Positions 511 to 19,916 of a stretch of 22,164 nt of DNA are shown here, piece by piece. Origin of the DNA: a virus. Location: positions 1 through 22,164 of the IMG/VR virus record IMGVR_UViG_3300025769_000943. One strand, given 5' to 3'. How positions within the stretch are numbered: the stretch's first letter is position 1; each line of letters opens with the position of its first letter. Position numbers and translations under genes: made by a program. Under the pieces are notes generated by a model. That model saw nothing but the letters and a program-made list of their open reading frames with translations, did no database searches and was not told the origin of the DNA.

Positions 511-541
511 TCAAACAAACAATAATTAATTCTATTATATA
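511..541 (+). promoter_or_regulatory. Candidate phage late promoter, copy 1 (AAAC / TATTATATA)
   Basis: TCAAACAAA at 511-519 is followed by TTCTATTATATA at 530-541; AAAC and TATTATATA are 16 bases apart. The same pair with 16-17 base spacing occurs in front of three other late-type units (2805, 18291, 19885). The box ends 12 bases before the ATG at 554. The spacing is that of a -35/-10 promoter, and AAC is common in -35 elements of ECF sigma factors. It does not match the host TAnnTTTG consensus. Promoter function is inferred. Confidence 0.65.
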
Positions 542-2804: not shown

Positions 2805-2835
2805 TCAAACAAAAACGACTTTTTTCTATTATATA
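2805..2835 (+). promoter_or_regulatory. Candidate phage late promoter, copy 2 (AAAC / TATTATATA)
   Basis: TCAAACAAA (2805-2813) and TTCTATTATATA (2824-2835) repeat copy 1 exactly in both boxes and in the 16-base gap between AAAC and TATTATATA, although the bases in between differ. The motif comes directly after a strong terminator, where a new promoter is needed. The box ends 15 bases before the ATG at 2851. Confidence 0.7.
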
Positions 2836-11892: not shown

Positions 11893-11923
11893 TCAATAAC
11901 TTATATATATTAACATTCTAATT

Positions 11924-11971
11924 GTTAATAACTTATTTAATTACTTTGTTAATTAGCAAGTTAATTATTTG
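11924..11971 (+). repeat. Four 12-base tandem repeats (GTTAATTA-type) in the early control region
   Basis: Reading in steps of 12 from 11924 gives GTTAATAACTTA, TTTAATTACTTT, GTTAATTAGCAA and GTTAATTATTTG. The first eight bases follow GTTAATTA with at most one mismatch per copy. They occupy most of the 105-base gap between the lysis and replication blocks and end exactly where the TATATTTG promoter box begins. Exact periodicity suggests a protein-binding array (operator or origin iterons). The region is very AT-rich, so chance is not excluded. Confidence 0.5.
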
Positions 11972-11979
11972 TATATTTG
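11945..11979 (+). promoter_or_regulatory. Host-type (Bacteroidota) early promoter
   Basis: TATATTTG at 11972-11979 is a perfect TAnnTTTG -7 element. TTTG at 11945-11948 can serve as the -33 element with 23 bases between, at the long end of the accepted range. The box lies 18 bases before the ATG at 11998 and opens the replication block. The 12-base repeats overlap the spacer and the -33 region, where a bound protein would block or assist polymerase. Confidence 0.75.
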
Positions 11980-15460: not shown

Positions 15461-15468
15461 TATATTTG
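15461..15468 (+). promoter_or_regulatory. Host-type -7 promoter box before the sigma-factor operon
   Basis: TATATTTG at 15461-15468 is the same octamer as at 11972 and matches TAnnTTTG. It ends 3 bases before the ATG at 15472, so the RNA would start at or next to the start codon. No TTG lies at the usual -33 distance (the nearest upstream is at 15414-15416, 44 bases away), so the promoter may be weak or activated. Confidence 0.6.
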
Positions 15469-15471
15469 ATT

Positions 15472-15828
15472 ATGGAGAAACCAATATTTGCAAACACTAC
15501 ACATCAAATAGTTGTAAACGATTATTTAAACCTGATGTTATCATTTGTAAAAGAGATTTCTTCAGAAACAAAATATAATAATTTTAAAGAAGTATTGCAG
15601 GTTATTATAGAATATCATAATAGTTATGGTAAAGATGTAGATCAAGGTAATTGGGATGATTGGCTAACACTTATACCTTCACATACTTCAGTAATGGTAA
15701 ATGGATATTTTGCAGGAATACAAACAAAAAGAAATTTAGAAGCTATAAGAGCATACAAGCTATTACTAGACAATGCTTTAGAAATGGTTGTAAGAGATTT
15801 AAGAGATATAAAGAATAACAATGAATAA
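15472..15828 (+). CDS. Unknown early/middle protein, first gene of the sigma-factor operon
   Basis: I start at the ATG at 15472, giving 118 residues; the in-frame TTG at 15466 lies inside the promoter box. The product starts MEKPIFANTTHQIVVNDYLN and appears helical throughout, acidic in the middle (GKDVDQGNWDDWLTLIPSHTSVMVNGYFAGIQTK) with a basic-acidic helical end. I do not recognise a family. It overlaps the sigma-like gene by 8 bases, so the two are translationally coupled; an anti-sigma or co-factor role would fit the position but has no direct support. Confidence 0.6.
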   Translation: MEKPIFANTTHQIVVNDYLNLMLSFVKEISSETKYNNFKEVLQVIIEYHNSYGKDVDQGNWDDWLTLIPSHTSVMVNGYFAGIQTKRNLEAIRAYKLLLDNALEMVVRDLRDIKNNNE

Positions 15829-16384
15829 AATATATCAAGCAGTAGCAGATTGTAGAGAAACATTTGTAGAAATGTCATACACCTACTCGCAAGATATAAA
15901 TGAAATAGAAGAATGTGTACAAGAATGTCTTATGTATTTTCTGCAAATGAATCCTCAAGTCCTAAAAGATATATACAATAAAGATGGACAGAAAGGTTTA
16001 ATAAGATATGGTGCAGTAGTATTAAGAAGAAGTTTTACATCAGTAAGAAGTCCTTACTATTATAAGTACAAGAAATACTATACTAACTTAGATGCACAGG
16101 CAAGTAGTATAACATATGACATAACAGAAACAGGAGAAATGTCAAACGAGAAACATTTATACAATATACCTAATCCTGAAGAATACCAACAATGGCAAAA
16201 GCTAGAACTTATCGATAAGGCATTAGAAGATATATATTGGTACGATGCTTCGGTTTTTCGATTGTACTATTACGAGGGTAATACACTAACAGGTCTAGCA
16301 AAGAAAACAGGTATAAGTAGAAATAGCTTGTTCACGACTATAGACAAAGTAAGAGAATATCTAAAAGAAAAATTAGATGATTAA
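15821..16384 (+). CDS. RNA polymerase sigma-70/ECF-like factor
   Basis: The 187-residue product has the size and two-part layout of an ECF sigma factor. Residues about 5-75 form a helical block (YSQDINEIEECVQECLMYFLQM, then GAVVLRRSF) comparable with region 2, which binds polymerase and the -10 element. A Tyr/Lys-rich linker (78-120) follows, then a region 4-like domain (about 127-185) with 'LELIDKALEDIYWYDASVFRLYYYEGNTLTGLAKKTGISRNSLFTTIDKVREYLKEKL'. The helix-turn-helix at about 155-180 is clear, and 'VFRLYYYEGNTLTGLAKKTGIS' parallels the region 4 pattern. Region 2 is diverged, so a transcription factor with only the region 4 fold is an alternative. It sits in the operon preceding four late units that share a non-host promoter-like motif. 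Confidence 0.72.
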   Translation: MNKIYQAVADCRETFVEMSYTYSQDINEIEECVQECLMYFLQMNPQVLKDIYNKDGQKGLIRYGAVVLRRSFTSVRSPYYYKYKKYYTNLDAQASSITYDITETGEMSNEKHLYNIPNPEEYQQWQKLELIDKALEDIYWYDASVFRLYYYEGNTLTGLAKKTGISRNSLFTTIDKVREYLKEKLDD

Positions 16385-17021
16385 TATTACAAACGAAGAT
16401 AATATGGAGTTAATGTCAAGATATGAGGATAATCATTTTGACTTAGCAATAGTTGATCCACCTTATGGAATAAATGCAGACAAAAAAAATAGTGTTAAAA
16501 AATTACAATCAAATAAATCAAGTGCTTTAAGTAAAGATTATGGAAATCAAGAATGGGATTTTGATATTCCAGATGATAATTATTTTAAACAATTAAAAAG
16601 AGTTAGTAAAAAACAAATAGTTTGGGGAGCTAATTTTTTTAATCTACGAGGTGGAATGTTATATTGGCATAAAAGAGTTACAATGCCAACTTATAGCCAA
16701 GGAGAATTGGCTTGGTTGTCTTGGTTAAAAAAAGTTGATTTTGTTGATATTGCATGGCATGGTATGATTCAGCATGATATGAAAAACAAAGAGATAAGAA
16801 TACACCCAACACAAAAACCAGTAAAACTTTATGAATGGTTACTTATGAACTACGCAAAAGAAGGAGATAAGATTTTAGATACACATCTTGGAAGTGGCTC
16901 AATAGCAATAGCTTGTCATAACTTAGGTTACGACCTTACTGCTTGTGAGCTTGACAAAGAATATTATGATGCAGCTATAAAAAGATTAAATGAACATACT
17001 GCACAACTAAGAATATTATGA
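16377..17021 (+). CDS. Orphan DNA N-methyltransferase (N6-adenine or N4-cytosine type)
   Basis: The 214-residue product holds the catalytic motif DPPY at 27-30 near the N-terminus and the AdoMet-binding motif DTHLGSGS at 168-175 near the C-terminus, the permuted order of beta-class amino-methyltransferases. HPTQKP at 143-148 is the usual motif between them. DPPY is typical of N6-adenine enzymes. No restriction gene is adjacent, so it is probably an orphan enzyme protecting phage DNA against host restriction or marking it for regulation. The recognition site cannot be read from sequence. It overlaps the sigma-like gene by 8 bases and the next gene by 4. Confidence 0.9.
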   Translation: MINITNEDNMELMSRYEDNHFDLAIVDPPYGINADKKNSVKKLQSNKSSALSKDYGNQEWDFDIPDDNYFKQLKRVSKKQIVWGANFFNLRGGMLYWHKRVTMPTYSQGELAWLSWLKKVDFVDIAWHGMIQHDMKNKEIRIHPTQKPVKLYEWLLMNYAKEGDKILDTHLGSGSIAIACHNLGYDLTACELDKEYYDAAIKRLNEHTAQLRIL

Positions 17022-17925: not shown

Positions 17926-18308
17926 TGAAATTTGTAATTCACGATAAAAAAGATAAGATGCAATTAGTAAACTATTTAAAAGATATGGAAAGTCCATATA
18001 CTGTAGAGGTTAAGAAACACAGAAACACAAGATCAAACGTACAGAACAATTACTATTGGAAATGTATAGTACAAGTATTAGCTGAAGAATTGGGCTACTT
18101 TAATGATGAAATTCATGATATTTTAAGGGCTAAGTTTCTGAATGAATGGGAAATGATAGAGATAAACAATAACAAAATAGGACTAAACAAAATAGTAAGT
18201 ACAACATCTTTAAATACTAAAGAGTTTGAGAATTATACAGAAAAGATTAGAATATGGGCATTGTCTGATCTAGGGATAAGATTAATGCTACCAAACGAAT
18301 ACCAATAA
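17925..18308 (+). CDS. ninB: NinB-like recombination protein
   Basis: The 127-residue product resembles the NinB family: 'VEVKKHRNTRSNVQNNYYWKCIVQVLAEELGYFNDEIHDILRAKFL' (about 28-72) carries the R-S-x2-Q-N-x-Y-Y-W signature, and 'VSTTSLNTKEFENYTEKIRIWALSDLGIRLMLPNEY' closes the domain. Lambda NinB (Orf) binds single-stranded DNA and acts with host recombination proteins in place of RecFOR. The N-terminal half is slightly diverged, so I hold the name below certainty. It is the last gene before the terminase unit, and its final codons contain the upstream half of late-promoter copy 3. Confidence 0.8.
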   Translation: MKFVIHDKKDKMQLVNYLKDMESPYTVEVKKHRNTRSNVQNNYYWKCIVQVLAEELGYFNDEIHDILRAKFLNEWEMIEINNNKIGLNKIVSTTSLNTKEFENYTEKIRIWALSDLGIRLMLPNEYQ

Positions 18309-18321
18309 TTTCTATTATATA
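18291..18321 (+). promoter_or_regulatory. Candidate phage late promoter, copy 3 (terminase unit)
   Basis: CCAAACGAA (18291-18299, inside the ninB end) is followed by TTCTATTATATA (18310-18321); AAAC and TATTATATA are 16 bases apart, as in copies 1 and 2. Here the -10 side forms a perfect 18-base palindrome (18310-18327), not seen at the other copies. The terS ATG lies 30 bases downstream. Confidence 0.65.
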
Positions 18322-18351
18322 ATAGAATTGAATAATCAATTTAAATCAATT

Positions 18352-18621
18352 ATGGACAAGAGAATAAACAATGGTGGTAAAAGAGAGGGTGCAGGTCGTA
18401 AAAGTAAAGCAGAAGAACAAAAGCTAATAGAGAACTTAACACCTATGAACCCTGATGCTCTAAAGTCATTAGAGATAGGTTTAAAGAATAAAGAACAATG
18501 GGCAGTAAAGTTATTCTTTGAATACTTTTATGGTAAACCACAACAAAGAGTTGATGTAACGAGTAATAGCGAAACATTAAACATACCAATAATAAACTTC
18601 GTTGAATCCGAAACTGAATAA
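18352..18621 (+). CDS. terS: Terminase small subunit
   Basis: I start at the ATG at 18352 (89 residues, MDKRINNGGKREGAGRKSKA). The alternative TTG at 18328 would lie directly after the -10 box and partly in the palindrome. The product has the basic GGKREGAGRKSK motif and a helical part 'LKSLEIGLKNKEQWAVKLFFEYFYGKPQQRVD', both typical of small terminase subunits in Bacteroidota phages. It binds packaging-start DNA and recruits the large subunit. Its last 20 bases overlap the large subunit gene, which uses a TTG start. Confidence 0.82.
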   Translation: MDKRINNGGKREGAGRKSKAEEQKLIENLTPMNPDALKSLEIGLKNKEQWAVKLFFEYFYGKPQQRVDVTSNSETLNIPIINFVESETE

Positions 18622-19810
18622 AAAGTATAGTGCATTATTTTCTTCTGACTGTAGGTATTATATAATTACAGGTGGGCGAGGATCAGGTAAGTCCTATGCA
18701 GTTACAGTATTCTTAACACTACTTACTATGTCGCAAGGTGTAAGAGTATTGTTTACAAGATATACTATGGTTTCTGCTCACTTATCTATTATACCTGAGT
18801 TTTTAGAAAAGATAGGTATATTAGGTTTAGATACAATCTTTAGTATAAACAAATCAGAAGTAGTCAATACATCTACAAAGAGTGATATACTATTTAGAGG
18901 TATTAAGACATCATCAGGTAATCAAACTGCTTCTCTTAAATCTTTACAAGGTATTAACTGTTGGGTACTTGATGAAGCTGAAGAACTTATTGATGAGAAT
19001 ATATTTGACACTATAGACCTTAGTATTAGAGAAAAGAAAGTACAAAATAGAATCATCTTAGTATTAAACCCTGTAACTAAAGAACATTGGATATATAAAC
19101 GATTCTTTGAGGAGAGAGGTGTTTTAAGTGGATTTAACGGCATTAAGGACAATGTGTGCTATATACACTCTACGTATTTAGATAATAAAGCTAACCTATC
19201 TAAAAGTTTCTTAGAAAGGATTTATAGAATTAAAAGCACTAACATTAAGAAGTATCAACACAAAATCTTAGGTGGTTGGTTAGATAAAGCTGAAGGGGTT
19301 GTATTTGAGAACTGGACAATAGGAGAATTTAATCCTGATAACTTACAGACATCTTGTGGTATGGACTTTGGGTTTTCTGTTGATCCTGATTCACTAACAG
19401 AAGTAGCTATAGATAAAAAGAAAATGAAGATATATATTAGAGAGCATATATATCGTAATGGTTTAAAATCACACGAGTTAGCTAAGATAATATTAGAGAA
19501 GGTAGAAAACAAGCTAATTATAGCAGATAGTGCAGAACCAAGATTAATAGAAGATTTAAGACACTTAGGAGTAAACATAAAACCTGTAAAGAAAGGAACT
19601 ATAGAAAGTGGTGTAACTCGTATGCAAGATTATCAGTTAGTAGTTACTTCTGAATCAACAAACATAATCAAAGAGTTAAACAATTATGTCTATGCAGACA
19701 AAGGTAGTAAGTTATATGTAGATAGCTATAACCACGCAATAGATGGTATAAGATATAACGTAATATATCACTTAGACAATCCTAATGCAGGTAGATATTT
19801 CGTACAATAA
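18602..19810 (+). CDS. terL: Terminase large subunit (ATPase/nuclease)
   Basis: The 402-residue product carries the packaging-ATPase motifs and the RNase H-like nuclease. Walker A is GGRGSGKS (24-31), Walker B WVLDEAEE (121-128), and the coupling motif 'LNPVTKEHW' is at about 155. Nuclease acidic residues appear in 'GMDFGFSVDPDSL' (D255), 'IIADSAEPRLIEDLR' (D309) and 'YNHAIDGIRY' (D381). It is a Terminase_3/PBSX-type enzyme that powers DNA translocation through the portal and cuts the concatemer. The start is TTG at 18602: a stop lies in frame at 18593-18595, and the first in-frame ATG (residue 43) would delete Walker A. The overlap with terS suggests coupling. Confidence 0.95.
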   Translation: MNPKLNKKYSALFSSDCRYYIITGGRGSGKSYAVTVFLTLLTMSQGVRVLFTRYTMVSAHLSIIPEFLEKIGILGLDTIFSINKSEVVNTSTKSDILFRGIKTSSGNQTASLKSLQGINCWVLDEAEELIDENIFDTIDLSIREKKVQNRIILVLNPVTKEHWIYKRFFEERGVLSGFNGIKDNVCYIHSTYLDNKANLSKSFLERIYRIKSTNIKKYQHKILGGWLDKAEGVVFENWTIGEFNPDNLQTSCGMDFGFSVDPDSLTEVAIDKKKMKIYIREHIYRNGLKSHELAKIILEKVENKLIIADSAEPRLIEDLRHLGVNIKPVKKGTIESGVTRMQDYQLVVTSESTNIIKELNNYVYADKGSKLYVDSYNHAIDGIRYNVIYHLDNPNAGRYFVQ

Positions 19811-19812
19811 GA

Positions 19813-19842
19813 AAAGGTGCAACTCCGAAGAATTACACCTTT
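19813..19842 (+). terminator. Weak hairpin after terL, possible terminator
   Basis: AAAGGTG (19813-19819) and CACCTTT (19836-19842) pair over 7 bases around a 16-base loop, just after the terL stop. No T-run follows directly (GAAAAACAAAAACTTTTT), so termination would be weak. The 108-base gap to the next gene also holds late-promoter copy 4. Confidence 0.4.
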
Positions 19843-19884: not shown

Positions 19885-19916
19885 TTAAACTAAATAACAA
19901 ATAATTCTATTATATA
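19885..19916 (+). promoter_or_regulatory. Candidate phage late promoter, copy 4 (tail unit)
   Basis: TTAAACTAA (19885-19893) and TTCTATTATATA (19905-19916) repeat the late motif with a 17-base gap between AAAC and TATTATATA, one more than in the other copies. The box ends only 2 bases before the ATG at 19919, so transcription from it would give a leaderless mRNA. That fits best if the -10 hexamer is TATTAT (19908-19913). Confidence 0.65.

Follow-up and report, generated by a model that had tools for sequence, protein, structure and literature searches.

How does a phage pass from promoters of the host type to its own late genes? The question is raised by the segment between positions 15461 and 16384 of the window, which is the whole stretch of DNA that has been analysed (22,164 nucleotides of the IMG/VR virus record IMGVR_UViG_3300025769_000943). 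Phage-encoded sigma factors that switch the host polymerase to later genes are known from T4 (gp55) and SPO1 (gp28 and gp33-34). A preliminary description had proposed a factor of this kind here, in an operon served by a host-type promoter, and it had delimited the segment correctly: the span holds the promoter box, a partner gene and the sigma gene (Table 1).

Table 1. Features of the window and motif-preceded gene starts of the Nonlabens phage P12024S.
Feature	Positions	Strand	Basis or context
Late promoter 1 (predicted), AAACAAA-N10-TTCTATTATATA	513..541	+	12 nt before ATG 554
Late promoter 2 (predicted), AAACAAA-N10-TTCTATTATATA	2807..2835	+	15 nt before ATG 2851
Host-type -7 box TATATTTG	11972..11979	+	before early (replication) operon
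Host-type -7 box TATATTTG of the sigma operon	15461..15468	+	3 nt before ATG 15472
118-aa partner gene	15472..15828	+	first in sigma operon; 8-nt overlap with sigma start
Phage ECF-type sigma factor, 187 aa	15821..16384	+	open frame; TIGR02937; AF2 models and VIA-align
Late promoter 3 (predicted), AAACGAA-N10-TTCTATTATATA	18293..18321	+	30 nt before terS-like ATG 18352, then terL
Terminase large subunit	18602..19810	+	3' of late promoter 3; phrog_2 E=8.4e-46; 60% identity to P12024S TerL
Late promoter 4 (predicted), AACTAAA-N10-TTCTATTATATA	19888..19916	+	2 nt before ATG 19919; unit after terL
Motif-preceded gene starts in P12024S (L232, NC_018271)	179, 3031, 5412, 21280, 23961, 25201, 26802		unannotated in record

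The 187-aa protein is an ECF-type sigma factor by both sequence and fold. The region 4-like helix-turn-helix and the possible region 2 that had been noticed in it are both present. The NCBIfam sigma70-ECF model TIGR02937 covers residues 7-185 (E=4.6e-9, with a score of 36.1 bits that lies under the curated cut-off of 42.9) and matches 57 of 57 diverse relatives of the protein (E up to 1e-3, the best being 9.1e-14), in whose alignment residues 162-178 are nearly unchanging. The Pfam Sigma70_r4 match was below the gathering threshold, and the comparison with PHROGs gave only weak regulator and Q-like matches (E 0.005-0.04). Relatives are very common in IMG/VR, where about 230 loci with 50-99% identity were found. 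The window sigma had no tblastn match in 50,697 phage records, a distant relative likewise matched no named phage, and the 22,164-nt window itself gave no megablast match to named phages.

Two AlphaFold2 (AF2) models show an N-terminal domain of four helices and, beyond a loose linker, a helix-turn-helix domain at the C terminus; these parts correspond to region 2 (about residues 1-86), the flexible linker (about 87-120) and region 4 (about 121-187). The region 2 fold, for which a structure prediction had been suggested as a check, is present in the predicted structure, with a mean pLDDT of about 92 over residues 1-70 in one model. The linker, of about 35 residues, was modelled with low confidence and without a helical domain, which gives the protein an ECF layout in which regions 1.1 and 3 are absent and regions 2 and 4 are joined by a short connection. 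The pTM of both models was low (0.48 and 0.45), so that the arrangement of the domains is not predicted. The best Foldseek match was the Mycobacterium tuberculosis ECF factor SigL within its initiation complex (probability 1.0). In the VIA-align comparison the second AF2 model gave a Z of 9.9 over 160 residues with SigL and of 9.8 with Escherichia coli sigmaE, both taken from initiation complexes, and region 4 alone gave a Z of 9.3 (2.7 A, 68 residues) with sigmaE region 4 on -35 DNA (2h27_A), values of about 9-10 being modest for helical proteins. Region 2 superposed on that of SigR at 1.7 A over 70 residues.

The offset between the stop of the partner gene and the start of the sigma gene is identical in 181 of 223 loci. 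No Pfam match over the cut-off and no PHROG match was obtained for the partner protein, which, as a guess, might be an anti-sigma factor or a co-activator; ECF factors often have their cognate anti-sigma encoded alongside. The last 8 nt of the sigma gene are shared with a gene for an N6/N4 DNA methyltransferase (16377-17021), probably a further member of the operon.

The host-type box reported upstream of this operon was found again in relatives: of 142 distinct upstream regions, 124 have TAnnTTTG at 3-5 nt ahead of the partner-gene ATG, with variation in the two middle bases; shuffling gave a mean of 0.78, so a chance match is excluded. The box agrees with the -7 element of the Bacteroidota primary sigma, which in Flavobacterium johnsoniae is TAHHTTTG with the transcription start 4-5 nt downstream (PMC6847099). 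Given that distance and the position of the box just ahead of the ATG, the mRNA of the sigma operon would begin at or near the AUG. Many relatives carry, as the window does at 11972, a TAnnTTTG box at the matching place before the early operon, followed by a leader that is short but longer than that of the sigma-operon box. A scan of the window for E. coli-type sigma-70 promoters stayed at chance level (109 found versus 103.7). Upstream of the early-operon box, GTTAAT-like repeat units spaced by about one helix turn extend over 11900-11979 and occur also in relatives; an operator or an AT-rich upstream element is a possible function for them.

A different motif, shared by the late units, had also been described, and its presence was borne out: the pattern AAAC-N15-18-TATTATATA occurs four times in the window versus 0.08 expected, a number reached in 0 of 100 shuffles, with all four sites on the plus strand. 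It has been refined to AAMYRAA-N10-TTCTATTATATA. The unit behind late promoter 1 leads into a capsid-like gene at 1213, and late promoter 2 precedes the next unit. Strong terminator-like hairpins are located directly upstream of late promoters 2 (2775-2798) and 4 (19813-19842, called on the minus strand), which suggests that the late units are separated from what precedes them. An inverted repeat (AATTGAATAATCAATT, 18326-18341) lies in the stretch from late promoter 3 to the ATG of terS. Its symmetry is kept in relatives with altered letters (GATTGAATAATCAATC, TTGATTAATCAA and ATTAGTTAACTAAT), and it may act as an operator or form an RNA hairpin where the terS mRNA begins.

The same bipartite motif was observed in hundreds of related IMG/VR contigs, before terS and other late genes. 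The core TTCTATTATATA was counted 125 times on the strand of the sigma gene versus 11 on the opposite strand in the near clade, and 149 versus 2 in the far clade, where sigma identity is 50-65%; as many of these genomes are related, neither the motif counts nor the sigma counts are independent. When the core was the only criterion for choosing sites, AAMYRAA stood precisely 10 nt before it in 305 of 329 distinct sites. Conversely, sites picked by AAMYRAA-N10 alone had an exact core in 312 cases, one mismatch in 40 and two in 7, and the distribution of mismatches was bimodal, with a separate chance peak beyond two. The motif precedes the ATG of an open reading frame at 320 of 334 distinct sites, mostly at a distance within 2-32 nt (2 nt at 121 sites, 4 nt at 69 and 30-32 nt at 69). 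Each of 42 records, most of them of 25-33 kb, contained 1-5 sites, nearly all of them on a single strand within a record, and a reversed control pattern had a single occurrence in the same set. The fixed spacing fits what is expected of an ECF promoter, namely an AA-rich -35, a separate -10 and a spacer of about 16-17, the labels -35 and -10 resting here on geometry. The motif stays near-exact while the sigma drops to 50% identity and the spacers and flanks diverge.

Co-occurrence of the gene and the motif in related phages, another of the checks proposed at the outset, has been confirmed to the extent that no sufficiently long motif-bearing relative without the sigma was found. A scan of IMG/VR with the motif alone returned at least 120 stretches, and among the matches listed all 12 tested motif-bearing records of at least 25 kb encode the sigma. 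In shorter loci spanning the region, the sigma gene lies about 1-5.5 kb upstream of the motif on the same strand. Five shorter motif-bearing records (15-20 kb) showed no sigma match, likely due to fragment ends. One contig (L307) was considered as a case of the motif without the sigma and rejected: it opens with genes that lie 0.8-2.4 kb 3' of the sigma in three relatives (L205, L228 and L112), and it appears as an exception because it begins after the sigma gene. Within this main group the link between sigma and motif could be due to common descent alone, and only the contrast with a cousin group breaks it.

The cousin group is that of the Nonlabens phages P12024S and P12024L, which by TerL (60%) come closest among named phages. 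In P12024S (NC_018271) the gene directly upstream of terS, gp33, is annotated as a hypothetical protein with Sigma-70 region 2 and matches ECF models; the hhalign comparison between the window sigma family and the P12024S type gave a probability of 35%, and the two are not clearly orthologous. The P12024S genome contains no TTCTATTATATA. Its late motif is AAACAAA-N13/14-CGTTAATA, and the pattern AAAC-N16/17-CGTTA is found before seven gene starts, which account for 7 of its 9 genome-wide matches (1.99 expected in all). P12024S shares with the window phage an ECF-like sigma gene placed upstream of terS, the AAAC -35-like element, a motif that ends 2 nt before the ATG and a TATATTTG box upstream of the gene cluster that holds the sigma, whereas its -10 is CGTTAATA instead of TTCTATTATATA and its partner gene encodes a VRR-NUC protein. 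This pairing of a different sigma with a different -10, while the AAAC-type -35 and the spacing to the ATG are unchanged, argues most strongly for a motif dictated by the sigma rather than by shared ancestry alone. The pattern AAACAAA-N14-CGTTAATATA was found in 25 IMG/VR stretches; those with an ATG 2 nt after it come from phages of the P12024 type, as does their sigma wherever the stretch includes that region. The remaining stretches look like chance matches. In the Riemerella phage RAP44 (TerL 44%), the gene at the comparable place matches no sigma family. With about even chances of being right, it is proposed that marine flavobacterial phages offer a natural series of pairs of sigma and late promoter, along which replacement or divergence of the ECF-type sigma went hand in hand with a change of the -10 (TTCTATTATATA versus CGTTAATA), the AAAC-type -35 and the 2-nt position staying constant and many late mRNAs being leaderless or nearly so.

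The TAnnTTTG promoters and the host of P12024S suggest that the hosts of the sigma-bearing phages are probably Flavobacteriia. The 36 kb contig that bears a close relative with 83% sigma identity (L082) is assigned to a Pseudooceanicola MAG, most likely through wrong binning of phage DNA.

The reading preferred here, with a probability of about 0.87, is that the phage ECF-type sigma directs the host core RNA polymerase to the AAMYRAA-N10-TTCTATTATATA late promoters after an early phase governed by the host sigma. Through its TAnnTTTG elements, the host primary sigma would first transcribe two operons, the early one (box at 11972) and the one that holds the partner and sigma genes (box at 15461). 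The phage sigma would then accumulate and bind the host core RNA polymerase, with region 4 reading AAMYRAA as the -35 and region 2 reading TCTATTATATA as the -10, and the late units (terS/terL, the capsid unit and other structural units) would be opened next in the presumed time course.

RinA/ArpU-type regulators, in phages of Gram-positives, and Xpf of PBSX have a role in late transcription and are encoded directly before terS, a place that the window protein shares. The protein could accordingly be a late activator of this kind, with its helix-turn-helix bound upstream and recruiting the host holoenzyme, whose own sigma would read TATTATATA, and the weak PHROG matches to a transcriptional regulator and to Q-like proteins point in the same direction. 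However, RinA/ArpU-type proteins have a region-4-like domain without region 2, whereas the window protein is modelled with high confidence as having a complete region 2, which agrees with known structures of sigma region 2. The late -10 is moreover unlike the Bacteroidota TAnnTTTG (PMC6847099) and changes with the sigma type between the two phage groups, which makes such an activator unlikely. The motif might instead be read by an alternative sigma of the host, or be an operator of another sort, tied to the sigma gene by ancestry only; every motif-bearing genome does come from related phages, and ECF factors are plentiful among Bacteroidota, the presumed hosts. This explanation is nevertheless very unlikely, given a motif that is near-exact even where the sigma reaches 50% identity and a cousin group in which another sigma goes with another -10. 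Long, nearly invariant promoters are typical of T7-like polymerases, and a phage single-subunit RNA polymerase encoded outside the window would be consistent with the near-invariance of the motif. The search for PF00940 left 26 records (most of 27-36 kb) unmatched, a weak negative in view of control genomes that were unmatched too, but a sigma factor better suits both the gap between -35 and -10 and the linkage to a sigma gene, and a polymerase of this type is improbable in the extreme.

A switch directed by the phage sigma can be compared with known systems. T4 gp55 reads a lone -10-like TATAAATA and needs gp33 and the sliding clamp, whereas the window sigma has both region 2 and region 4, with a -35-like element before the late genes. 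Closer in type are phiEco32 gp36 and SU10 gp32, ECF-type phage sigma factors for middle and late genes (PMC4281155, PMC4331800). As in the window phage, their genes are first served by host-type promoters, and the element that the sigma recognises ahead of middle/late genes is conserved and AT-rich (tAATGTATAtA in their case). These phages differ in being podophages that infect enterobacteria, with genomes of about 77 kb, and in the sequence of the motif. No -35 element figures in the cited reports, whereas the window phage has the fixed -35-like AAMYRAA; and phiEco32 has a known RNA polymerase inhibitor/activator, where the window phage has only the 118-aa partner gene of no known family. No sequence match between the gp36 family and the present one was detected by tblastn among 50,697 phage records, a result compatible with distant homology.

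The statement of the preliminary description that no ECF-like example was known in this phage group stands in part. No earlier sigma/late-promoter system of this kind in flavobacterial phages was found in the open-access literature, where the papers found on these phages mention neither sigma factors nor promoters and no description of the P12024S promoters was found. It has to be corrected, as phages of the phiEco32/SU10 type are known to encode ECF-type sigma factors for middle/late genes (PMC4281155) and gp33 of P12024S was already annotated with Sigma-70 region 2. What is newest is that sigma and -10 element change as a pair.

The phage-encoded sigma strategy is thereby probably extended to a large group of viruses, likely infecting marine flavobacteria, which very probably re-program the host RNA polymerase from early to late genes. 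With motif and sigma gene linked in dozens of near-complete genomes, abundant uncultured marine phages acquire a testable transcription programme, from early promoters of the host type to a late regulon of the phage sigma, which would explain how early and late genes are separated in phages of hosts with the unusual TAnnTTTG promoters. The late motif permits the annotation of operons and of their timing straight from metagenomic contigs, and the two phage groups, with their differing sigma types and -10 elements, constitute a natural data set on the joint change of ECF sigma factors and promoters. The sigma/promoter pairs are also possibly orthogonal expression parts for Bacteroidota.
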